Source: Bryobacterales bacterium (GTDB lineage: Bacteria > Acidobacteriota > Terriglobia > Bryobacterales > Bryobacteraceae). From it: 35,569 nt of DNA. Both the position numbers and the translations under genes were made by a program. The notes under the pieces were generated by a model, which was given only the letters and a program-made list of their open reading frames with translations, made no database searches and was not told where the DNA came from. Location of the stretch: positions 8,418 to 43,986 of the forward strand of contig PLDO01000596.1 of NCBI GenBank assembly GCA_003136215.1. Reading direction: 5' to 3'. Below are positions 22,576 to 34,857 of this stretch, one piece after another. Position 1 is the stretch's first letter; every line of letters begins with the position of its first letter.

Positions 22576-23619
22576 CTGAACACAAGACATGGGGCATGGG
22601 CCATCGCGGCCGCGGTGGCGTTGGGCACGGCGGTCCTGGCGGGCTGTGGAGCCCCAACCCCGCCGGCTGCTTCCCGGACGGCGCTCCCCGCGGCAACCGG
22701 AGCGGCCGCGCCCAAAGCGGCCAAGGAGATCACCATCGGCCTCTCCATGTATACCCTCGCCGCCCCGTATTTCGCGGCTCAGACCAATGCCGTGAAGAAG
22801 AAGGCCGCGGAAATGGGAGTCAAGGCCGTGATCGCCACCGAAGCCCACGACGACATGAACAAGCAACTGGCGGATGTCGAGGACCTGCTGTCCAAGAATA
22901 TCGATGTCCTGATTCTGAACCCCAAGGACCCCAAGGGGCTGGTCCCCGCGACCAAGGCGGCCGCCCGGGCGGGCATCCCGGTGATCGTCATCGACAGCTC
23001 CATCGATCCCTCGGCCGACTACGTGACCACCGTGCAGTCCAACAACCTGGCCAATGGCGAGCTGGTTGGCGAATGGCTTGCGTCCCGCATGAAGGGCCAG
23101 CCAATCCGCATGGCCCTGTTGAGCGGCACCCAGGGCAATCCCGTCGGCAAGGAACGCCGCCAGGGCGTCTTCCGCGGCATTATCGAGCAGCAGCTTCGCG
23201 ACAGTAATAAATCGGGTTTCGAGATCCTCACCCAGGGTTGGGGCAACTGGACGCACGAAGGCGGACTGAAGGCCATGGAGGACATCCTGGTGGCCCGGCC
23301 GGACGCCAACGTGCTGCTGTGCGAAAACGACAGCATGTGTCTCGGCGCGCTCAAGGCCATCACCGAGGCCGGCCGGAAGGGCCAGATCCTGGTGGCCGCC
23401 GCGGCCGATGGTCAGAAGGAGGCTTACGAAGCCATCCGCAGAGGCGAGTACGGCGCAACTGGGCTGAACGATCCCGCGCTGGTGGGGGGCACCGCGGTGG
23501 AGATCGCCCTCGGGTACCTGGCGGGGCGCCGCGATTTCCCGAAAATCTATTACACGGAGGCGGCGGCGATCACCAGGCTCAACGTGGACAAGTTCTACCG
23601 TGCGAACTCGGATTTCTGA
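22576..23619 (+). CDS. Sugar ABC transporter substrate-binding lipoprotein (RbsB-like, Peripla_BP_4)
   Basis: LNTRHGAWAIAAAVALGTAVLAGCGAP lipobox; EITIGLSMYTLAAPYFAAQTNAVKKKAAEMGVKAVIATEAHDDMNKQLADVEDLLSKNIDVLILNP. Apparent CTG start 5 nt after AAGGAGG. Confidence 0.9.
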   Translation: MNTRHGAWAIAAAVALGTAVLAGCGAPTPPAASRTALPAATGAAAPKAAKEITIGLSMYTLAAPYFAAQTNAVKKKAAEMGVKAVIATEAHDDMNKQLADVEDLLSKNIDVLILNPKDPKGLVPATKAAARAGIPVIVIDSSIDPSADYVTTVQSNNLANGELVGEWLASRMKGQPIRMALLSGTQGNPVGKERRQGVFRGIIEQQLRDSNKSGFEILTQGWGNWTHEGGLKAMEDILVARPDANVLLCENDSMCLGALKAITEAGRKGQILVAAAADGQKEAYEAIRRGEYGATGLNDPALVGGTAVEIALGYLAGRRDFPKIYYTEAAAITRLNVDKFYRANSDF

Positions 23620-23621
23620 CC

Positions 23622-25139
23622 GTGGCGCCTGAGACCTATCGTGTCGAGATCGCCGGCGTGAGCAAGTCGTTTCGGGCGGTCCAGGCATTGAAGGATGTGT
23701 CTCTCAATGTCCGGCCGGGAGAAATCCACGCCCTGGTGGGCGAGAACGGCGCCGGCAAGTCCACCTTGATGAACATCCTCTCGGGCGTTCTCCGCAAGGA
23801 TAGCGGCACCATCCGGATGGACGGCAGCGCCGTGGAGATCCCCGACCCGCGCGCGGGCCGCCAGCTCGGAATCGGCATCATTCACCAGGAACTGGCGCTG
23901 GTTCCCTCTCTCACCGTTGCCGAGAACATTTTCATCAGCCGTTTGTCGCGCCGCTTTGGCCTGGTGGACTGGCGCGGCCTGAACCGCCGCGCCGGAGAAC
24001 TGCTGGCACGAACCGGATTCCCCGAAATCGATCCGCGCGCCACGGTGGCGAGTCTTGGCGTGGCCTACCGTCAGATCGTCGAGATCGCGAAAGGGCTATC
24101 GGAGAATGTGAGGGTTCTGATACTGGACGAGCCGACTTCCGTACTGGCGCCCCAGGAAGTAGAGAGCCTCTTCGCGGCGCTCCGCATCCTGCGGGAACAG
24201 GGAGTCGGACTGGTATACATCAGCCATCGTCTGGACGAGATATTCCGTATTGCGGACCGCATCACGGTGCTCAAGGATGGCGCCGTGGTGCGCACCGTCC
24301 TGCCTTCGGAAATCACACCCGGCGATCTGATCGGCCTGATGATCGGGCGCACGCTGACCGCGATGTTCCCGAGCCGCGGCTCCCGTGCCGGCGTTGAGGT
24401 GCTCCGCGTCGACGCCTTGAGCCGCGGCGGAAAGGTCCGGGACGTTTCCTTTGTCGTGAGGGCGGGGGAAATCGTCGGGATCGCGGGATTGGTGGGCAGC
24501 GGCCGCACGGAGATCCTCCGGACCATTTTCGGCGCCGATCCGAAAGACAGCGGGACAATCTCGGTGGGTGGCCGCCGGTTGCGCATCCACTCGCCGCGGG
24601 ATGCGGTCCGCAACGGCATCGCGCTGGTGCCGGAGAGCAGGAAAGACCATGGCGTCATCCTCAGTATGTCGATCCGCAAGAATATCACCCTGCCCAGCGT
24701 CGGCCGGATGGCGGGCGCTCTCGGGATCATCCGGCAGCGCAAGGAAAGAAGCGTCGCGCAGACGCTGGCCGGCAGGTTGCGGATCAAGGCCCGGAACATC
24801 GACGCGGAGGTGGCCGACCTGAGCGGGGGCAATCAGCAGAAGGTGGTTTTGGCCAAGTGGCTCGGCACCGATTGCCGGGTTCTGCTGCTGGATGAACCTA
24901 CCCGCGGCGTGGATGTTGGGGCCAAGGCGGAACTCTACAGCCTCATCGCGGATCTGGCCGGCGCCGGCATGGCGATCGTCATGGTCTCCTCCGAGATGAT
25001 GGAGATGATCGGGCTGTGCGACCGGGTGGCCGTCGTCAGCCAGGGCAGGATTGCGGGCGTGCTGGAAGGCGCCGCGATTACCGAAGAAAACATCATGCGG
25101 CTGGCAGTCCGCAGGTCCGGATGTGGAGGAGGCGGGTGA
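23622..25139 (+). CDS. Sugar ABC transporter ATP-binding protein with two ABC domains (RbsA/MglA-like)
   Basis: GTG start at 23622; GENGAGKSTLMNILSGV and second-domain GLVGSGRTEILRTIFG, LSGGNQQKVVLAKWLGTDCRVLLLDEPTRGVDVGAK. Confidence 0.93.
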   Translation: MAPETYRVEIAGVSKSFRAVQALKDVSLNVRPGEIHALVGENGAGKSTLMNILSGVLRKDSGTIRMDGSAVEIPDPRAGRQLGIGIIHQELALVPSLTVAENIFISRLSRRFGLVDWRGLNRRAGELLARTGFPEIDPRATVASLGVAYRQIVEIAKGLSENVRVLILDEPTSVLAPQEVESLFAALRILREQGVGLVYISHRLDEIFRIADRITVLKDGAVVRTVLPSEITPGDLIGLMIGRTLTAMFPSRGSRAGVEVLRVDALSRGGKVRDVSFVVRAGEIVGIAGLVGSGRTEILRTIFGADPKDSGTISVGGRRLRIHSPRDAVRNGIALVPESRKDHGVILSMSIRKNITLPSVGRMAGALGIIRQRKERSVAQTLAGRLRIKARNIDAEVADLSGGNQQKVVLAKWLGTDCRVLLLDEPTRGVDVGAKAELYSLIADLAGAGMAIVMVSSEMMEMIGLCDRVAVVSQGRIAGVLEGAAITEENIMRLAVRRSGCGGGG

Positions 25140-26092
25140 TGGAACGGCGGATACGTCGGGAGAGCCTCATTCACCTGGTGCTGGAGTACAACACGGTCCT
25201 CATATTCCTGGCAATGCTCGTGCTTGCGGCATCGCTGTCGGATGTTTTCTTCAGCCGGAACAACATCTTCAATCTCCTGCGGCAGGTCGCCGGGCTGGCG
25301 GGGATGGGCCTGGGCATGCTGCTGGTGATTCTGACGGCGGGCATCGATCTGTCCGTCGGTTCCGTGGCGGCGCTGGCAAGCGTCATGGTGGCTTATTTGC
25401 TTGGCGTAACAGGCCTCGGGTTCGCGCTGGTGCTGACCGTCGCCATCGGTTCGCTGTGCGGCGCCGTGTCCGGCTATCTGGTGGCGGCGAGAAATATGGC
25501 GCCGTTCGTCGCCACCCTTGCCATGATGACCATTGCCAGGGGCTTCGCCTTCATCGTCTCCAAAGGATCTCCGATTATCATCGCCGATCCGAGATTGAAC
25601 AGTTTCGGGTCCGCCTATTGGCTGGGGGTTCCGACGCCGGTCTTCGTCATGGTTGTCATTTTTGGATTGGTGGCGTTTCTCCTGCGATTCACGGTGTTTG
25701 GAAGAATCGTGACAGCCATCGGGAGCAACGAGGCCGCGGTCAGGCTGGCGGGGATTCGGACCGGTTGGTACAAGTTTGCCGTCTATTGCATTTCCGGCGC
25801 CTTCTGCGCCATCGCCGGGATCATCAGCACGAGCCGCACCGGCGTCGGATCGCCGATCGTCGGAACGGGCGCCGAGTTGGATGCCATCGCCGCCGTGGTG
25901 ATCGGCGGAGCGAGCCTCGCCGGCGGCAAAGGAACCGCCTTTCAGACTCTGTTGGGCGTGCTCATTCTCGGCATCATCGGCAACATCATGAACCTGATGA
26001 ACATCCCGGGCTATCCACAACAGGTCGTCAAGGGCCTGATCATCATTTGTGCCGTGCTGCTTCAGGGATGGCGGCGCAATTCGGAAGCTTGA
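25139..26092 (+). CDS. Sugar ABC transporter permease (RbsC-like)
   Basis: GLAGMGLGMLLVILTAGIDLSVGSVAALASVM; ATG overlaps ATPase stop by 1 nt. Confidence 0.92.
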   Translation: MERRIRRESLIHLVLEYNTVLIFLAMLVLAASLSDVFFSRNNIFNLLRQVAGLAGMGLGMLLVILTAGIDLSVGSVAALASVMVAYLLGVTGLGFALVLTVAIGSLCGAVSGYLVAARNMAPFVATLAMMTIARGFAFIVSKGSPIIIADPRLNSFGSAYWLGVPTPVFVMVVIFGLVAFLLRFTVFGRIVTAIGSNEAAVRLAGIRTGWYKFAVYCISGAFCAIAGIISTSRTGVGSPIVGTGAELDAIAAVVIGGASLAGGKGTAFQTLLGVLILGIIGNIMNLMNIPGYPQQVVKGLIIICAVLLQGWRRNSEA

Positions 26093-26906: not shown

Positions 26907-26982
26907 TCCATTCATTCCAGTTAACTTGCTCTTTGTTTTGGAATTGTGGGATCATTCGTCCAGGTTTGAGGAGAAGACGCAC

Positions 26983-27627
26983 GTGACGAATCGACATTTG
27001 CTTTCGCGGTTGCTCGTTCTTGGCTGTTTGATGGCGTTCCTCGGGTTCGCCGGTACGATCACGAATCCTAGCTTTGAAAGTGGGGACACGTCGGCGGTCG
27101 TCTCGTTCAATGGTCTCGGATATGGTGGACAGTCCGCCGCAACTGCTTGGAATATATGGAACAACACGGCAGGCCTAACCACAACGGAACTCTGCACCGC
27201 CGCAGCTTGCCCCTCTGGCGCCAGTTCTGTGCCGGCGCCCGTTGACGATACTTATGATATCCACATAACGTCTAACGGAACGGGAAATGGAATTTATCAG
27301 ATCCTCCCGGAATCCTACGCGACAACAGCCGGAGTATATTTGAATATCGTGACTGGGTCCGTGCAGGTCGCTGTCATTGGTCCTGACGCGTTTTTCTCTG
27401 AAACCTTCACGTCCAGTGGCTTGGCGACCCTGAGCTTCTCCAGTTCACGCATTGACGAGATTGTTGTGTATGGCCTTGGTAACACTGATGGTATTTCAGA
27501 CTTCTACGCCGACGCAACGACGCTTACTTCGGATTCCAGTGCGCCAGAACCTACAACGCTTCTCCTCGGTTTGGGAGGCCTCCTTACTGTGATTAGCGCT
27601 GCAAGACGCCGCCGTTCGCAATCGTAA
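26983..27627 (+). CDS. PEP-CTERM sorting-domain exported protein
   Basis: GTG at 26983 after GAGGAGA; VTNRHLLSRLLVLGCLMAFLGFAGTITNPSFESG; C-term SAPEPTTLLLGLGGLLTVISAARRRRSQS. Confidence 0.88.
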   Translation: MTNRHLLSRLLVLGCLMAFLGFAGTITNPSFESGDTSAVVSFNGLGYGGQSAATAWNIWNNTAGLTTTELCTAAACPSGASSVPAPVDDTYDIHITSNGTGNGIYQILPESYATTAGVYLNIVTGSVQVAVIGPDAFFSETFTSSGLATLSFSSSRIDEIVVYGLGNTDGISDFYADATTLTSDSSAPEPTTLLLGLGGLLTVISAARRRRSQS

Positions 27628-27959: not shown

Positions 27960-28715
27960 TCAAAGCCCCTTGTTTCCAGCGCGACCACCTCTCGCCCTCC
28001 GCTGCCTGCCTCCCCCATGTGAAGACCATGGGAGTGGTCCCGCAAACAACTCCGGACCCTGGTGTCCCAGCAGAGCGACGAGTTCCGGACAGCTCTCGCG
28101 GTACCCATGATGCCGGCGGAAGACATTGCGGGCTTCACGCTTTCTTGCCGGCTCCGATGTCGCGCCATAGGGATCCCGCTCGAAGAGAGCGGCGCGCGCT
28201 TTCTCAAACGGCAGGTTCTCGTCCAGCGTCGGCGGGTTGTTTACGCCTTCATAGCGGAAGCGTGCCGCGGGAAACCGCAGGGCGCGCCGGTGAAGATCGA
28301 AGCGCGGGCCTTTGAATTCCCAGCCCACCACGACGATACGAGCGGGGTAGCCGCCGGTCACCTCTCGAAAGCGGCAGATACCGTAGAGCAAATTCTGCAA
28401 CGAATCGAGCGAGAACTCTTCCGTGGTGGCACGTCCGCGCACCTCCGGATGACCGAACCAGTCGAAGTGGTCGGCGGCCAGCCAATAGCCCTGGCCTTCG
28501 CTGCGCGGACCCGCCGCGGCATCCGTTTGGCCGCCTCCAAAGATGAGCAGGCTATCGGCGTCTTGGGCGGCAATGGCCACGCCGCGCTTCACGTGGTCGC
28601 GGTAGAGTGAGCCTTCTCCCGCTTGAAAGGGCTTCAGGAACCATCCGTCGTCGCGCTCCAGCCGGTCAAAGCGGTAGGGAATCGCGTGGCCTGCCACCAG
28701 CACCAGATTCTTCAT
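27960..28715 (-). CDS. DUF218/YdcF-like protein
   Basis: ATG at 28713-28715: MKNLVLVAGHAIPYRFDRLERDDGWFLKPFQAGEGSLYRDHVKRGVAIAAQDADSLLIFGGGQTD…SEGQGYWLAADHF. Confidence 0.65.
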   Translation of the reverse strand: MKNLVLVAGHAIPYRFDRLERDDGWFLKPFQAGEGSLYRDHVKRGVAIAAQDADSLLIFGGGQTDAAAGPRSEGQGYWLAADHFDWFGHPEVRGRATTEEFSLDSLQNLLYGICRFREVTGGYPARIVVVGWEFKGPRFDLHRRALRFPAARFRYEGVNNPPTLDENLPFEKARAALFERDPYGATSEPARKREARNVFRRHHGYRESCPELVALLGHQGPELFAGPLPWSSHGGGRQRRARGGRAGNKGL

Positions 28716-28740: not shown

Positions 28741-29025
28741 TTAGCGACCGGTTTCGATGAGCCCCTTAGCTCCGAGGCGAGCCAGGAACTCAAGCAGATC
28801 GTACTCCAGTTGTTTTGCCTCGACGTCATACTCAGGGGTGAGTGTATCCACGACCTGGCGGACAGTGTTGCCCTGCGACAACAATTCCCACATCCGGGCA
28901 CCGACCGGATCGAGACCGTAATAGGCACCCGTCTCCATATTCAGGAGCACAATTTCGTTGGCGACCTGCCGCGAAACCACCGGGTCGGATGCGGTAACTG
29001 TGCTATCCAGCGTAAACTCCAACAT
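28741..29025 (-). CDS. PqqD-family protein (second discrete RRE-like/lasso B1-like protein)
   Basis: MLEFTLDSTVTASDPVVSRQVANEIVLLNMETGAYYGLDPVGARMWELLSQGNTVRQVVDTLTPEYDVEAKQLEYDLLEFLARLGAKGLI. Confidence 0.88.
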   Translation of the reverse strand: MLEFTLDSTVTASDPVVSRQVANEIVLLNMETGAYYGLDPVGARMWELLSQGNTVRQVVDTLTPEYDVEAKQLEYDLLEFLARLGAKGLIETGR

Positions 29026-29030
29026 CCGGT

Positions 29031-29978
29031 TCACCCTTTCTCCCGCAAATGACGGAACAACTTTTCGCAAACGGCCGGCAGCGCGGAGAAGTCCCGGGGG
29101 AATGAAAGCTTGTATACCAGTTTCGAACGGGCCGCGCGTGCGACGCGTCCGAACAGTTCCGCTGTGCGAGGTGCGTCCATGGGATCCAGCACGAAAGCAG
29201 ATTTCATCAGCTCCTCGAAAGCTCCCGATTCAGGCAACGATTCGATATGAACCGCGCCCGCCGCGCCACCGTCGGGTTCGGCTAGAGCAAAAACCCGCCT
29301 GAGGGGGGCTGCCGCGGAGCAAAAGGACAGATCCCTGGCATCGCCCATCCGCACCTTTTCCGTGTAATGCGCCACCTTAGACAGTCGAGGCCGATCGCCA
29401 CCGAGTGCGCTCACGGTATCAGGCCATAAGCGGACACCCGGATAAGCAGGGACAGCCACAAGTGAAGGGCCGGCGTCGTCCACAATGAGGTAGTCGTCGG
29501 TGACGAGGGGCAGGCCCTCCCGGGCAAGCGCCAGGGCGAGAGTTGACTTCCCTTCGCCGGAAGTGCCGAGAAACGCGATGGCTCCCCACGGACTGAGAAC
29601 CGCGCTGGCGTGCAGCACCAGTTTTCCCCAAACGCTCTGGGCAAGCGGAAGAACCTGATCGAGCAGAAGGTGGCGGACCGTTGCGCGCGCGATCCCGGGA
29701 CGAGGGCGGCATCCGATGCGCTCCGCAGTTCGAGATACCACGAAGTCCGCCATCCCGGTAAAGCGGACCAGGTAATCGGGACCGTGCCGGAAGAATTCCG
29801 CCCAGACGTGGCCATCGTCGTCCAGCCATTTGTGAAAAGGCTCGACTCGAGGGCGGTGAGCGCGATAGAGTCCAAACTCCAGCCGCACCGGGGTCCCGCC
29901 GTTCTCGCGAACTACACGAGGGAGTTCCGGAAGAGGCGTTGTGGTCGAGAGTGTGAGATCGCAGAGTTGATAAAGCAA
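29031..29978 (-). CDS. HPr kinase-like (HprK C-terminal-type) P-loop protein, lasso-cluster-associated kinase candidate
   Basis: LVLHASAVLSPWGAIAFLGTSGEGKSTLALALAREGLPLVTDDYLIVDD (Walker A plus DD motif). Confidence 0.82.
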   Translation of the reverse strand: MLYQLCDLTLSTTTPLPELPRVVRENGGTPVRLEFGLYRAHRPRVEPFHKWLDDDGHVWAEFFRHGPDYLVRFTGMADFVVSRTAERIGCRPRPGIARATVRHLLLDQVLPLAQSVWGKLVLHASAVLSPWGAIAFLGTSGEGKSTLALALAREGLPLVTDDYLIVDDAGPSLVAVPAYPGVRLWPDTVSALGGDRPRLSKVAHYTEKVRMGDARDLSFCSAAAPLRRVFALAEPDGGAAGAVHIESLPESGAFEELMKSAFVLDPMDAPRTAELFGRVARAARSKLVYKLSFPRDFSALPAVCEKLFRHLREKG

Positions 29979-29984
29979 CGGAGC

Positions 29985-31106
29985 CTACTCGGAGTAACGG
30001 GTGACCACCTCGGCTACAAACAGGGCGGCCTCCTGCTCGGAATGAAACAAATCGCGGTGGCGGCGCCAGACTTCCGCCTCTATTTCAGACAACGGCCTGT
30101 GGCCGTCGCACAGTTGGAGGACCGTGGCACGGCCCTGTCCCCGCGCTGTGAGGCGCGGAGCAAAGTCGGGTTGGGTTCGCCTGAGTTCCTCCTCACACAC
30201 CAGTAGGCCCTTCCAGGTGGAGTGAGAAAAGGTCCGGTCGCGAACCTGCACCCGCCAACTGATAATCGTATCCTGGGGAATGACCTGAATCCGGATGCGT
30301 ACGACTTCGCCTTTGGCGACAGGGACGGCCTCGCCGATCGGGAAAAAGACGTTCCGCCGATTGATGCGCTGTTCCGCCAGCGGCGAGTTGGTCATGGTCA
30401 CACCTGGCGAGAGGCGCGCCAGGAACCAACCGCCCACGCCATGGAGTACTCCATCGCGAGAGATGGTGATCGCAACTTCCGCTCCAAAAGGCTCCGCCGC
30501 CACAGTCTGAAGCGAATGAGAGACGAGCGTGGCTGGATCACCCAGCAACTGCCCCGGCTCGAACGCGAAAGGATAACCCGTATTCGCCGCGATCGTATAC
30601 GCCGGACGATAGTCCAAACCGGCGACGGGTGCTTTCCAGAACTCGACCTGTTCGAACCCCGAAGGATGCTCGACGGGCGCGATACACATCTCCACGCTGG
30701 AGGGAATCAGCGCGCCCCCGGGCTTTAGCAGCCGGTTTCTGGCGTCCGAGAAATAATCCAGCAGGCCGGCCTCAAAGCCGAACCGCCCGATCTGGTCGGA
30801 GACAATCAGGTCGAACTTCTCCGGGAGGTTGACGTGGGTGGATAGCCCGTGAACGAAGACCATGCGGTCATCGAGTGCATTCGCGCGGGAAAGCTGCCGG
30901 GCGAGTTCCACCATCCCGGTAGACTCCACCGAGTAAACCCGCCGCGCGCCTGCCTGGCAAGCCAGGTAGCCGAGTATCCCCGTTCCGGATCCCAAGTCGA
31001 GCACAACGCTTCCCGGCTGCACTATTTCACGAAGAGCGGCGCGAAAAGCGGCAAGGCGAGGCGCGTCGGCAAGGTACTGCCGGTGTTCATCGAGGATCAA
31101 AGACAA
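29985..31106 (-). CDS. PRMT-like SAM methyltransferase with a C-terminal PqqD-like domain
   Basis: VQPGSVVLDLGSGTGILGYLACQAGARRVYSVESTGMVELARQLSRANALDDRMVFVHG…; C-term RGQGRATVLQLCDGHRPLSEIEAEVWRRHRDLFHSEQEAALFVAEVVTRY. TTG start. Confidence 0.8.
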   Translation of the reverse strand: MSLILDEHRQYLADAPRLAAFRAALREIVQPGSVVLDLGSGTGILGYLACQAGARRVYSVESTGMVELARQLSRANALDDRMVFVHGLSTHVNLPEKFDLIVSDQIGRFGFEAGLLDYFSDARNRLLKPGGALIPSSVEMCIAPVEHPSGFEQVEFWKAPVAGLDYRPAYTIAANTGYPFAFEPGQLLGDPATLVSHSLQTVAAEPFGAEVAITISRDGVLHGVGGWFLARLSPGVTMTNSPLAEQRINRRNVFFPIGEAVPVAKGEVVRIRIQVIPQDTIISWRVQVRDRTFSHSTWKGLLVCEEELRRTQPDFAPRLTARGQGRATVLQLCDGHRPLSEIEAEVWRRHRDLFHSEQEAALFVAEVVTRYSE

Positions 31107-31151: not shown

Positions 31152-31310
31152 CTACAGGCACATCATGGTCATGCCATTACCAGCATCCGCGCCGTTGCCA
31201 TTCGAGCCGCGTGTCAGCTTGGCCACGTTGCCGTACTCCACGACTCTCGGCGGGCTGTACGGTTTTTTCGGTTGAGGACCTTCACGAGGCTCAGGTTGCT
31301 GATGTTCCAT
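31152..31310 (-). CDS. Lasso peptide precursor (52 aa): MEHQQPEPREGPQPKKPYSPPRVVEYGNVAKLTR|GSNGNGADAGNGMTMMCL
   Basis: ATG 31308-31310, SD AAAGGAGG 31318-31325, TAG 31152-31154. Leader Y18-P21-V23-G27-T33 fits YxxPxLxxxGxxxxxT; Thr at -2; core Gly1 and Asp8 compatible with an 8-residue macrolactam; lies between a cyclase gene and tailoring genes. Absent from the supplied ORF track. Confidence 0.92.
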   Translation of the reverse strand: MEHQQPEPREGPQPKKPYSPPRVVEYGNVAKLTRGSNGNGADAGNGMTMMCL

Positions 31311-31324
31311 CCGGCAGCCTCCTT

Positions 31325-33181
31325 TCATAGCTCTTGGCCAGCCGCACAGTGAACGACGCCTGCCGGGATGGTTTCACAACCCAGTGGCGCGCCCGCGTAG
31401 AACACGGCACTGCACCACAGATTTGTAGCATACGTCATCCAGATTGGCCACAGGTCGTAGTCTTCGTCACCGGATGCGATCGACCGGGCGGCACTTCGGT
31501 ACAAACGCCGCATGACATCATCGCGGAACCAACCGGAGCCAATGGCGCCGGAGGGGAAAAGGGACGCTCCACCGTGGGACTGGAGAGTCCGAAAGGTCAG
31601 CGACGAAAACTCCGCCTTGCCGCTGCGCAGGCGAATGGCATCCGGGTATAAGCCGCGGGTCGCCTGGCGCAGGATGAACTTCGTGTGTCCGCGCGACAGT
31701 TGCGACTGGGGGAGGCTCAAAGCGAACTCGATGATTCGCTGGTCATATAGGGGATGGCGGCATTCAATTCCGAAGGACGCGGCCGACCGGTCCATTGCCT
31801 CAATTGCGAAGGTGTGCCAGGCATCGTAAGCGGTTCGGAGTTTACCGCGGGTGCAGCCGCAGGACTGGCAGCGCGGGCGCCCTGCGATGCGCTCCAACAG
31901 GCGGACCCGGCCGGCGAAGGACGAATCCACCCATGCAGGCAGGCGCGGCGCCCGCCGCACGGCCCGAAGTGCGGCGCGAACAGGCGGGAGAAACGAGTCC
32001 GGCAACAGCCTGCGAACCGCGATCCTGAAGCGATTCCAGCCTTCCGCTCCAGTCAACCACTCGTCCCCCCCCAAACCGGTCAACATAGTGCGGCAGGACC
32101 TCTGGGCTGCCGCCTGGAGCAGGGGGTCCAGCATCACCGAATTCGGCGCGCCGGGGAAGTCGAGCGTCCGCCGGGCAATATCCAGATAGTAACTTCGCGG
32201 CATGGGTTCCGGACAGACCAGAGTGCTCTTGAGGGACAAAGTCCGCACCGTTTCGCCGATGTAATTACTCTCGTCGCAAGCTTCACCAGGGAAGACCAGG
32301 GAAAAGGTCTCGAAGCGGTCGCGCCCCGGCGTTCCGTTGCAAAACAAGTGGTGAGCGACACCGACAACCGAAGTAGAATCCAGCCCTCCGCTCAAGAGGG
32401 CTCCGACACCGGCGGAGGAACGCAGACGGCACCGCACGGCCTCTTTCAGCAGATGGAGAAAGTGTTCCGCGTACTGCGCATCGTTGCGGTACCGGATGGT
32501 GCGGCCCGGGTCCACGCCGGTGTATCGGGCCTTGCGCACACCGCGTGACGAGACCACGGAGTAGTGGGCCGGGGCAAGACGGTAGATCCCCTGGAATAAA
32601 GTCTCTTCGAGATCCACCAGGTCTGACGCCACATATTCCGCGACCATTCCTTCGTTAAGTCGCCGGGGCACGACCGGGTGCTGCAATAACTGATGAAGTT
32701 CGGAAGCCCAGAGGAACACATGGCCGTTGGTGAAGTAGTAGAACGGCTTGATGCCGAGATGGTCGCGGGCGCAGAAGAGGCGGCGATCGCGTTTGTCCCA
32801 AATCGCATAAGCGAAGTCGCCGACGATGCGGCGGGGGGAGTCTTCGCCCCAGGCGGTATAGGCTTTGAGCACGAGTTCGGCGTCAGTATCGTCGCGGAGA
32901 ACAGTCCCCGCCGACTGGAGCGCATGGCCGAGTTCCTCACGGTTATCGATCCGGCCGTCCATCACCAGGCAGAATCCCCCGGTTTCGTCCCAAAGCGGCT
33001 GCGCCTCATGCAACGACTCGGGCGTGTTGCGCATCATGCAGTGCCCGAGGCCTATTTGGTTGTCGATCGAATGGCGGATGCCGTCGGGGCCGCGGTAGGA
33101 GACGGCGGAGGTCATGCGGAGGAGCACGGCGCGGTCCACCGGCCTGGCGTCGAGGTTGAAAATGCCGGCAATGCCGCTCAT
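31325..33181 (-). CDS. Lasso peptide cyclase (asparagine synthetase B-like)
   Basis: MSGIAGIFNLDARPVDRAVLLRMTSAVSYRGPDG (GATase-like, no Cys2 nucleophile), GALLSGGLDSTSVVGVAHHLF (PP-loop). Start ATG overlaps B2 stop (ATGA); ORF to 33565 is an upstream extension artefact. Confidence 0.93.
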   Translation of the reverse strand: MSGIAGIFNLDARPVDRAVLLRMTSAVSYRGPDGIRHSIDNQIGLGHCMMRNTPESLHEAQPLWDETGGFCLVMDGRIDNREELGHALQSAGTVLRDDTDAELVLKAYTAWGEDSPRRIVGDFAYAIWDKRDRRLFCARDHLGIKPFYYFTNGHVFLWASELHQLLQHPVVPRRLNEGMVAEYVASDLVDLEETLFQGIYRLAPAHYSVVSSRGVRKARYTGVDPGRTIRYRNDAQYAEHFLHLLKEAVRCRLRSSAGVGALLSGGLDSTSVVGVAHHLFCNGTPGRDRFETFSLVFPGEACDESNYIGETVRTLSLKSTLVCPEPMPRSYYLDIARRTLDFPGAPNSVMLDPLLQAAAQRSCRTMLTGLGGDEWLTGAEGWNRFRIAVRRLLPDSFLPPVRAALRAVRRAPRLPAWVDSSFAGRVRLLERIAGRPRCQSCGCTRGKLRTAYDAWHTFAIEAMDRSAASFGIECRHPLYDQRIIEFALSLPQSQLSRGHTKFILRQATRGLYPDAIRLRSGKAEFSSLTFRTLQSHGGASLFPSGAIGSGWFRDDVMRRLYRSAARSIASGDEDYDLWPIWMTYATNLWCSAVFYAGAPLGCETIPAGVVHCAAGQEL

Positions 33182-33600
33182 GCGCCGTGCCCCTGGGTGA
33201 CGGACAGGATTGACGCAAACCGCCCCGGTTCGGTCAACCCGATGACCTGCTTCCCGGCGTGCTCGAGCCAGGCATGCGCCGCAAACCCTTCTGAGCCGAA
33301 CGTCGCGACGCCGATGCGGAGGTCGGATGGTTGGCCGTGGCGCGCGAACAGGCGCTGTCCCGCGAGGGCACGGACCAGGCAAGTGCAACCCGGCACCGAA
33401 GTCGCGGCGGCAAGAACGGCCCATGCGAGCCGGCCGGGAGCGACATCCGGGCGAAGCACAACCCGGGGAGCATGGCGGAGCCGCTTTAGCGGGACGAGCG
33501 ATAGGGCAAGGCGAAATGCCCAAAGGTAGAACAAGGCTTCCGCCAACAGCCAGCGATCGCGCCACGACAGCAGCTTGAACTTATTCAGCTTCCGGACCAT
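33178..33600 (-). CDS. Lasso peptide leader peptidase B2 (transglutaminase-like, McjB C-terminal type)
   Basis: MVRKLNKFKLLSWRDRWLLAEALFYLWAFRLALSLVPLKRL…SVPGCTCLVRALAGQRLFARHG…FAAHAWLEHAGKQVIG (Cys and His motif). Confidence 0.92.
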   Translation of the reverse strand: MVRKLNKFKLLSWRDRWLLAEALFYLWAFRLALSLVPLKRLRHAPRVVLRPDVAPGRLAWAVLAAATSVPGCTCLVRALAGQRLFARHGQPSDLRIGVATFGSEGFAAHAWLEHAGKQVIGLTEPGRFASILSVTQGHGA

Positions 33601-33910
33601 GGAGTCGAACGAGTCCTTTGGCGAGCAGATGATCGATGAGATCCGCGAGGTCGCGCTCGCAGGCTTCGGGCGCCACGTCGAACTCGGCCACGATGGCATC
33701 GCGAATCGAGGCGAGGGAGCGCGGTTGGCCGATCAGATTCCATACGCGCGCTCCAACCGGATTCAAGCCGTAGTAAAGTCCGTCTTTCAGGTTGAGAACC
33801 GCGGCTTCGCTGCCGAGGTCGCAGGAAACCTGATCAGGTGACGATTGGACGATGGAATCGGCAGTCGCGGCCTTGCGAGAAGTGCTGGTTTTCCGAGTCT
33901 GAATCTTCAC
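33581..33910 (-). CDS. Lasso peptide leader-recognition protein B1 (PqqD/RRE family)
   Basis: GTG at 33908-33910: VKIQTRKTSTSRKAATADSIVQSSPDQVSCDLGSEAAVLNLKDGLYYGLNPVGARVWNLIGQPRSLASIRDAIVAEFDVAPEACERDLADLIDHLLAKGLV. The 353-aa ORF is an extension. Confidence 0.92.
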   Translation of the reverse strand: MKIQTRKTSTSRKAATADSIVQSSPDQVSCDLGSEAAVLNLKDGLYYGLNPVGARVWNLIGQPRSLASIRDAIVAEFDVAPEACERDLADLIDHLLAKGLVRLHGPEAE

Positions 33911-33927: not shown

Positions 33928-34857
33928 CTAGGCGGCCCGCTGAACCAACACGTCGATTCCAGCCTGCAGTAGCAGCAGCCCGAAGAAGAACGCATGGCGC
34001 ACAGCCGCCCACGGGCTGTCGCGCAGTGCGATCTGATATGCGGCGTGCCGGATCTTCCAGGACAGGGGCCGCGGCTGCGCAGGGTGCGGGAGAACAGGCA
34101 GGATTTTCGGCCATGCGCGCCTCATTACCGCGTTGGGACGTAATCCCAATGCGGCTAACGCGGCTGGGCCACTCCGTTTGGCCCTCAATTCCTGAGAGGC
34201 GGCCCACAGGGCCGTCTGCAAACGCAGTTGGCGAGCCCTCTCCCCAATGACATGCCATTTCAGATTCCTGTGATTCGAGATGAATAACTCGAGGTCGTCG
34301 AGCCACATGGAGCGCTCGAAGAAGTGGCGTGCGGCATGGGCACAGAGGAAGATGAATTCGTCCTCCGGCTCCATGATATACGCCTGGCCGCCCAGGCTGG
34401 TGCGATACGCGCGCCGGCGGTCCAGAAACGCGGCCGCTTCGTGGCGCTTGCCCGGCATATCCGAGAAACGGTAATGGAGTTCCACGCAGGGCGCGCCACG
34501 CTTTTCGAAAACAGAGTGAAACTCCAGAGGATTTGCCGGCCACCCCGGCCACAGGGGTTTCGCAGGCGAGTAGCCCAGTTCTCGAAGTGCGGCCCCTGCG
34601 GCAGGCAGGTCCCGACGCGACACCATCAGGTCGAGGTCGCACGATTGCCGGGAGCCTTCATTCGCATAGATCCGTTCGGCCAGGACCGGGCCCTTCATGG
34701 TCAGTGCCGCCACACCGCCCCGCTCGAGCACGCGAAAGACTTGCGCCAGCGCGGAAAGCATGCCTTCATGGCGCAGTTCCAGGGCGACGCTGTAGCGGCG
34801 CTCCGCTGTCATGGTGGAGCCGCGCTCAAGTTGTCGGTGAGGGATGGCTGCGGGCAT
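33928..34857 (-). CDS. Nucleotidyltransferase family protein (NTP_transf_5-like)
   Basis: VAALTMKGPVLAERIYANEGSRQSCDLDLMVSRRDLPAAGAALRELGY…VELHYRFSD…FLCAHAARHFFERSMWLDDLELF. ATG at 34812 is an alternative start. Confidence 0.82.
   Translation of the reverse strand: MPAAIPHRQLERGSTMTAERRYSVALELRHEGMLSALAQVFRVLERGGVAALTMKGPVLAERIYANEGSRQSCDLDLMVSRRDLPAAGAALRELGYSPAKPLWPGWPANPLEFHSVFEKRGAPCVELHYRFSDMPGKRHEAAAFLDRRRAYRTSLGGQAYIMEPEDEFIFLCAHAARHFFERSMWLDDLELFISNHRNLKWHVIGERARQLRLQTALWAASQELRAKRSGPAALAALGLRPNAVMRRAWPKILPVLPHPAQPRPLSWKIRHAAYQIALRDSPWAAVRHAFFFGLLLLQAGIDVLVQRAA

Follow-up and report, generated by a model that had tools for sequence, protein, structure and literature searches.

The HPr-kinase-like enzyme encoded at 29031-29978 in the 35,569-nucleotide stretch of Bryobacterales DNA analysed here (the window) belongs to a lasso peptide cluster and to a clade of kinases in which no precursor found carries a Ser or Thr among its last two core residues. 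We consider it a genuine precursor kinase whose acceptor is a ring Ser/Thr near the core N-terminus (positions 2-5), in this peptide Ser2, with the resulting phosphate then probably decorated by the nucleotidyltransferase (NTase) of the cluster, a reading that we place just on the probable side.

Among known systems, PadeK/ThcoK/SyanK and PsmK phosphorylate a C-terminal Ser (PMC9266682, PMC8498205), and in pseudomycoidin the NTase PsmN adds a hexose to the phosphate made by the kinase (reviews PMC9266682, PMC8498205). The first-pass annotation took a C-terminal Ser as the target of lasso kinases at large, a premise that holds for the paeninodin group but is outdated as a general one. BsfK was reported in 2023 to phosphorylate core Ser3 of the linear precursor, taking Thr but not Tyr as acceptor, never using Thr2 of its own substrate, accepting ATP and other NTPs, and being accelerated by B1 (PMC10368454). 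In 2026, LppK was reported to phosphorylate core S3 of the non-lasso lpp RiPP, with S3T not accepted (PMC13381572). That such kinases can phosphorylate an internal residue is already on record, which partly explains the surprise at the absent C-terminal Ser.

The lasso cluster and its kinase

Every cluster gene lies on the minus strand, and the order NTase-B1-B2-cyclase-precursor-PRMT-fold methyltransferase-kinase-B1 makes a complete lasso cluster with the following features:

33928..34857, minus strand: NTP_transf_5 nucleotidyltransferase (PF14907, 131 bits), PsmN/BsfN type by context
33581..33910, minus strand: PqqD-family B1 (RRE) adjoining B2, from profile matches
33178..33600, minus strand: B2 leader peptidase, transglutaminase-like (NF033537, 79.8 bits against a cut-off of 33)
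31325..33181, minus strand: lasso macrolactam cyclase (C), asparagine-synthase type
31152..31310, minus strand: lasso precursor peptide, 52 aa (NF033521), ATG with AAAGGAGG upstream
31155..31208, minus strand: predicted core GSNGNGADAGNGMTMMCL, placed by the T(-2) rule and the 17-residue leader module, Gly1-Asp8 ring expected
31203..31205, minus strand: Ser2 codon, favoured phospho-acceptor by analogy with BsfK Ser3 (sole ring hydroxyl)
31167..31169, minus strand: Thr14 codon, weak acceptor candidate, not conserved
31158..31160, minus strand: Cys17 codon, residue -2 in the conserved C-terminal Cys-Leu, either a rival acceptor or the target of the methyltransferase
29985..31106, minus strand: PRMT-fold methyltransferase, 373 aa, between precursor and kinase
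29031..29978, minus strand: HprK/PEPCK-fold lasso-precursor kinase, 315 aa, TTG start 6 nt past the methyltransferase stop codon
28741..29025, minus strand: second B1, PqqD-family RRE, directly after the kinase

The precursor start was set at the ATG at 31310, right behind AAAGGAGG. The peptide matches the lasso leader motif NF033521 (29.2 bits, cut-off 19), its leader residues Y-17, P-14, V-12 and T-2 fit the YxxPx(L/V) motif, and Gly1 and Asp8 of the core define the eight-residue ring of a lasso precursor. As the first-pass annotation had read, Ser2 in the ring and Thr14 in the tail are the only Ser, Thr or Tyr residues of the core, and the sole thiol is that of Cys17. The core ends in MMCL, not in the C-terminal Ser of the paeninodin type, and its position 3 is Asn3, not the Ser3 used by BsfK, the nearest hydroxyl being Ser2.

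A second B1 stands behind the kinase also in L033, L034, L154 and L165, and by analogy with BsfB1 this protein probably presents the precursor to the kinase. Past it lies an ORF at 27960-28715 (minus strand) that matches nothing in Pfam or NCBIfam and has no relative among the first family loci compared, and which may be an orphan or a cluster member. Further observations in the surroundings are a PEP-CTERM-type secreted protein at 26926-27627 (plus strand; ..PEPTTLLLGLGGLLTVISAARRRR) and sugar ABC transporter genes (RbsA/RbsC-like by reading) at 23238-26092 (plus strand), upstream of the lasso cluster and on the opposite strand. An RNA family search across the cluster gave no match.

The kinase is a real ORF, and its earlier description as an HPr-kinase-like enzyme is borne out by the predicted fold. 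The AlphaFold2 model, built from an input of 37 window and locus sequences, reached a mean pLDDT of 93.3 and a pTM of 0.91, and Foldseek matched it with probability 1.00 to PEP carboxykinases and to the HprK structures 3tqf, 1kkl and 1jb1, which places it in the HprK/PEPCK structural superfamily. This fold search was needed, as a PDB sequence search with the kinase returned nothing meaningful. In profile searches, sequence likeness to HprK was limited to the P-loop region, with scores of 17.8 bits for PF07475 (cut-off 33.3), 16.3 bits for TIGR00679 (cut-off 240) and 32.7 bits for TIGR04355 (cut-off 200). Because the PF07475 and TIGR00679 scores fall far under the curated cut-offs, the profiles indicate that 'HprK-like' fits the enzyme, which shares the P-loop fold with HprK, and that 'HprK' does not.

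All published lasso-kinase residues are kept (H123, G138, G141, G143, K144, S145, D161 and D162), and their presence in the alignment excludes the loss of catalytic residues that the first-pass annotation had named as a ground for refutation. H, G138, G143, K, S, D and D are invariant in 37/37 clade kinases, window included, and G141 has one exception. The gene is intact, and its product is expected to bind NTP-Mg. With precursor, B1, B2 and C all present, it is a lasso-cluster gene. The 7.1-Mb draft genome (93% complete) gave no match to HPr (PF00381) or to canonical HprK (PF07475 at E 0.001), and a single lasso-leader precursor was found in it; the precursor is the only obvious substrate of the kinase.

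Relatives and the clade-wide tail rule

Kinase homologues are present in 35 of 237 genomes of the same family, many of them within lasso-type clusters; eight other genomes of the genus searched yielded no kinase match, and a single-protein kinase scan of the named genomes found no relatives. Scanning the named genomes with a methyltransferase alignment gave 80 loci. In other families of the Acidobacteriota, the closest methyltransferase relatives show 49-51% identity and have a kinase adjoining. In the close loci the genes run B1-B2-C-precursor-MT-kinase, and an NTase is usually present as well (21 of the 27 loci inspected); the hosts are Nitrospira, Acidobacteriota, Burkholderiales, Binatota, Rokubacteria and a deltaproteobacterial bin. 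The combination of PRMT-fold methyltransferase, kinase and Cys-Leu tail in one clade is apparently undescribed in the open-access PMC literature.

In the kinase tree, which comprises 88 rows, the window kinase falls in a starred clade of 37 rows with support of 100/96 and members from several phyla. Two references fall outside it, L284 and L328. L284, the one paeninodin-type locus retained as a control from a plasmid search that offered few references, lies on a plasmid of Priestia aryabhattai, has a precursor with a C-terminal Ser (..DLTFES) and is about 21% identical. L328 is very probably BsfK itself, because its residues counted from the MENTD start (H148, G163, G166, G168, K169, S170, D186 and D187) coincide with the published BsfK numbers and its precursor (..IIR, then GTSGNEVDGSTPADRGNNPGD) fits the published BsfA in Ile-2, Gly1, T2, S3, Asp8, S10, T11 and a C-terminal Asp. 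The window kinase does not group with BsfK, and the two stand in separate starred clades.

The window enzyme resembles BsfK, from the bsf cluster of Bradymonas sediminis FA350, in being an HprK-like lasso kinase with an identical set of H-G-G-G-K-S-D-D residues, and the bsf cluster also has B1, B2, C and an NTase, a precursor without C-terminal Ser, a G1-D8 ring and hydroxyls near the core N-terminus. Apart from the separate clade, bsf differs in its acceptor, which is restricted to core Ser3 (the window core reads Ser2, Asn3), in its Ile(-2) leader and C-terminal Asp, and in having no PRMT-fold methyltransferase and no Cys-Leu tail. With PadeK, ThcoK, SyanK and PsmK the window kinase shares the HprK-like fold family, the H-K-D-D motif and, as in pseudomycoidin, the pairing of kinase and NTase, but not the C-terminal Ser of the substrate. 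LppK is likewise an HprK-like peptide kinase found with an RRE and an NTP transferase, whereas its lpp RiPP is no lasso peptide and has a different leader peptidase.

Ser or Thr in the last two core residues occurs in none of the 36 clade members with a precursor, against 29 of 51 for other lasso-type kinases. The trait is strongly clade-structured (parsimony needs 11 changes on the tree, where shuffling gives a mean of 24.6), and the Fisher value for this difference (3e-9) overstates independence. The missing C-terminal Ser, earlier flagged as unexpected in this cluster, is a rule of the whole clade and no oddity of the window. Tails outside the clade include SG, SR, KTG, KSG and NKT. Separately, other kinase groups (L122, L123, L124, L055-L057, L067, L068 and L070) have clade-specific tails with a penultimate Ser (..SR, ..SG), a rule that goes unmentioned in the open-access literature surveyed.

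Ring hydroxyls and the Cys-Leu motif

Of the 38 clade cores, 37 have Ser or Thr at core positions 3-5, as do 25 of 56 cores with other kinases and 6 of 20 cores from kinase-free clusters (Fisher on de-duplicated sets, 1.3e-5), a range that was fixed post hoc after tests on positions 1-5 and 1-7. A column shuffle within the clade predicts 7.1 cores without such a residue where one is seen (P 0.0004; de-duplicated 0.0008), and a simulation that runs each of the three columns on its own along the kinase tree yields P 0.008; no coupling at 3-5 appears for the other kinases in the column shuffle (P 0.74). For positions 1-5, all 38 clade cores contain Ser/Thr (shuffle P 0.003, tree simulation P 0.10). 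Restricted to the Cys-Leu group, the ring-hydroxyl shuffle test was not significant (P 0.08), and an independent-pairs test of tail against ring hydroxyl had too few informative pairs. The residue shifts among positions 3, 4 and 5 and is hardly ever lost, a pattern as would be expected of a selected acceptor. The sole clade core without Ser/Thr at 3-5 is that of the window, where Ser2 is the only ring hydroxyl.

The first-pass annotation passed over the C-terminal Cys-Leu motif and the neighbouring PRMT-fold methyltransferase. Nearly every precursor of the close loci has a Cys-Leu end: of the 28 different cores in this Cys-Leu group, 27 have Cys at -2 followed by Leu at -1 and the other ends in Cys; the precursor finder relied on the leader motif alone, so the tail was not selected for. 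Within the kinase clade, Cys occurs in the last two residues of 25 of 36 members, compared with 1 of 51 outside, and Cys(-2) is the most conserved nucleophile, ahead of any hydroxyl. Cys-Leu is nearly invariant in lasso cores that are otherwise hypervariable (L140-L178; window 31155-31160). Its distribution also follows the methyltransferase. Clade kinases with no methyltransferase found nearby (L037 ..VRRF, L038 ..TRRH, L230 ..RPRP, L286 ..NRNRC, L315 and L317) never have the motif. L141 combines a Cys-Leu tail and a window-group methyltransferase with a kinase of another clade, and L198 is the reverse, its kinase falling inside the clade and its methyltransferase being distant. Exceptional tails beside a window-type methyltransferase occur in L139, L147, L148 and L149. 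Across these loci the motif tracks the methyltransferase no less closely than the kinase, and it may serve the methyltransferase.

The methyltransferase itself is modelled as a complete PRMT fold (AlphaFold2 pLDDT 92.2), with PRMT6 as the best Foldseek match (27% identity, E 4e-29), and the window core contains no Arg despite this enzyme in the cluster. In its PRMT-type acidic loop the first Glu is apparently replaced by Asp (D104) and E112 is kept. A C-terminal PqqD/RRE domain on the methyltransferase was considered and rejected (profile comparison probability 0.85%).

Some loci in the wider set depart from the usual lasso layout. At 9229-9405 of L118, a Cys-Leu precursor (TCGITTKATGNMLRVCL) has no Asp or Glu at core positions 7-9, which makes the usual lasso ring impossible. 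L036, L044, L052, L058, L243 and L272 contain B1, B2, kinase and NTase with no cyclase detected nearby, some of them with lasso-leader peptides (..ITQ, then MLLAITHH), and are possibly a non-lasso RiPP type. In L040/L214 and L062, lasso-leader precursors with very short Asp-ending cores (ASGLGDMND, VDNALCVSGCID) lie beside a cyclase and a kinase.

The acceptor and its rivals

In the pathway that we favour, the kinase would phosphorylate the linear precursor ahead of leader removal and cyclisation, while the PqqD-type B1 at 28741-29025 would hold the leader and aid the kinase. Just as BsfK acts on Ser3 of BsfA, the kinase would place the phosphate on a Ser or Thr hydroxyl at core positions 2-5, within the N-terminal half of the macrolactam ring, and the only such residue in this peptide is Ser2. 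B2 and C would then mature the phosphorylated precursor, and the NTP_transf_5 enzyme would probably decorate the phosphate as in pseudomycoidin. The first-pass annotation had offered an internal acceptor or, alternatively, a role with the NTase; the internal acceptor is the best reading, and the NTase role is no true alternative since the pseudomycoidin NTase acts on the phosphate of the kinase (reviews). Against this reading stand the position of the window as the lone clade core without Ser/Thr at 3-5, Ser2 lying just outside that range, the failure of BsfK to use Thr2 of its own substrate, the general richness of rings in Ser/Thr, the stronger conservation of Cys(-2) in the clade than of any hydroxyl, and the place of the window kinase outside the BsfK clade.

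An acceptor in the tail could be either Cys17 or Thr14. Phosphorylation of the Cys17 thiol, as the sulphur counterpart of a C-terminal or penultimate Ser/Thr and with the NTase acting on the thiophosphate, agrees with the near-constant Cys at -2 and its concentration in the clade, and with sister groups placing Ser/Thr at this very site (SG, SR, KTG, NKT). We nevertheless think it unlikely: the open-access literature surveyed contains no Cys-using lasso kinase, and the idea that Cys-Leu is simply the kinase acceptor is weakened by the methyltransferase-free clade kinases without the motif (L037, L038, L230, L315 and L317 among them) and by the other-clade kinase of L141. The broader proposal that the clade is a new lasso pathway type, in which a nearly invariant Cys-Leu takes the place of the C-terminal Ser and has its Cys phosphorylated by the kinase, with or without PRMT-fold methylation, seems to us quite unlikely, and no phospho-cysteine on lasso peptides is reported in the open-access literature surveyed. 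Thr14, which the first-pass annotation had listed as a candidate, has a free hydroxyl, and a tail residue in a comparable position is seen in two near relatives (L033 ..GMSMD; L144 and others ..STxCL). It makes a poor candidate all the same, one we hold very doubtful: it is not conserved, and eight Cys-Leu-group cores (L138, L142, L152, L153, L156 and three in L160) have no tail Ser/Thr, with the kinase present wherever the contig covers it (that of L138 stops before the kinase could show). Because of these eight cores, it is unlikely that the general acceptor is Thr14 or any other hydroxyl of the tail.

Two further readings dispense with phosphorylation of the window peptide at a side chain. 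The kinase could act on some other protein or on a small molecule, or form a C-terminal acyl phosphate, and the HprK/PEPCK fold does also serve small-molecule enzymes; the strict linkage of the kinase to lasso genes across phyla, the lack of an HPr match in the genome and the precedent of comparable kinases in the literature, which when tested modify the precursor peptide, render this improbable. Alternatively, the cluster may be decaying for phosphorylation, with an ancestral acceptor at 3-5 lost and the kinase idle, in keeping with the window being alone among 38 clade cores in this respect and with the absence of a kinase match in the eight other genus genomes searched. A full-length kinase with all catalytic residues intact and high model confidence, together with the remaining Ser2, leaves decay with little credit in our view.

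Until now, acceptor choice has been read from single peptides, as the C-terminal Ser of the paeninodin group or Ser3 in Bradymonas. The window clade provides a testable clade-wide rule, in that its kinases never face a C-terminal Ser/Thr and almost always face a ring Ser/Thr. The survey also brings out lasso clusters, apparently not described before, that combine a PRMT-fold methyltransferase with a Cys-Leu tail and occur in Nitrospira, Acidobacteriota, Burkholderiales, Binatota, Rokubacteria and Myxococcota. The window peptide, in which Ser2 is the one hydroxyl of the ring, is a useful test case for the range over which the acceptor can shift.
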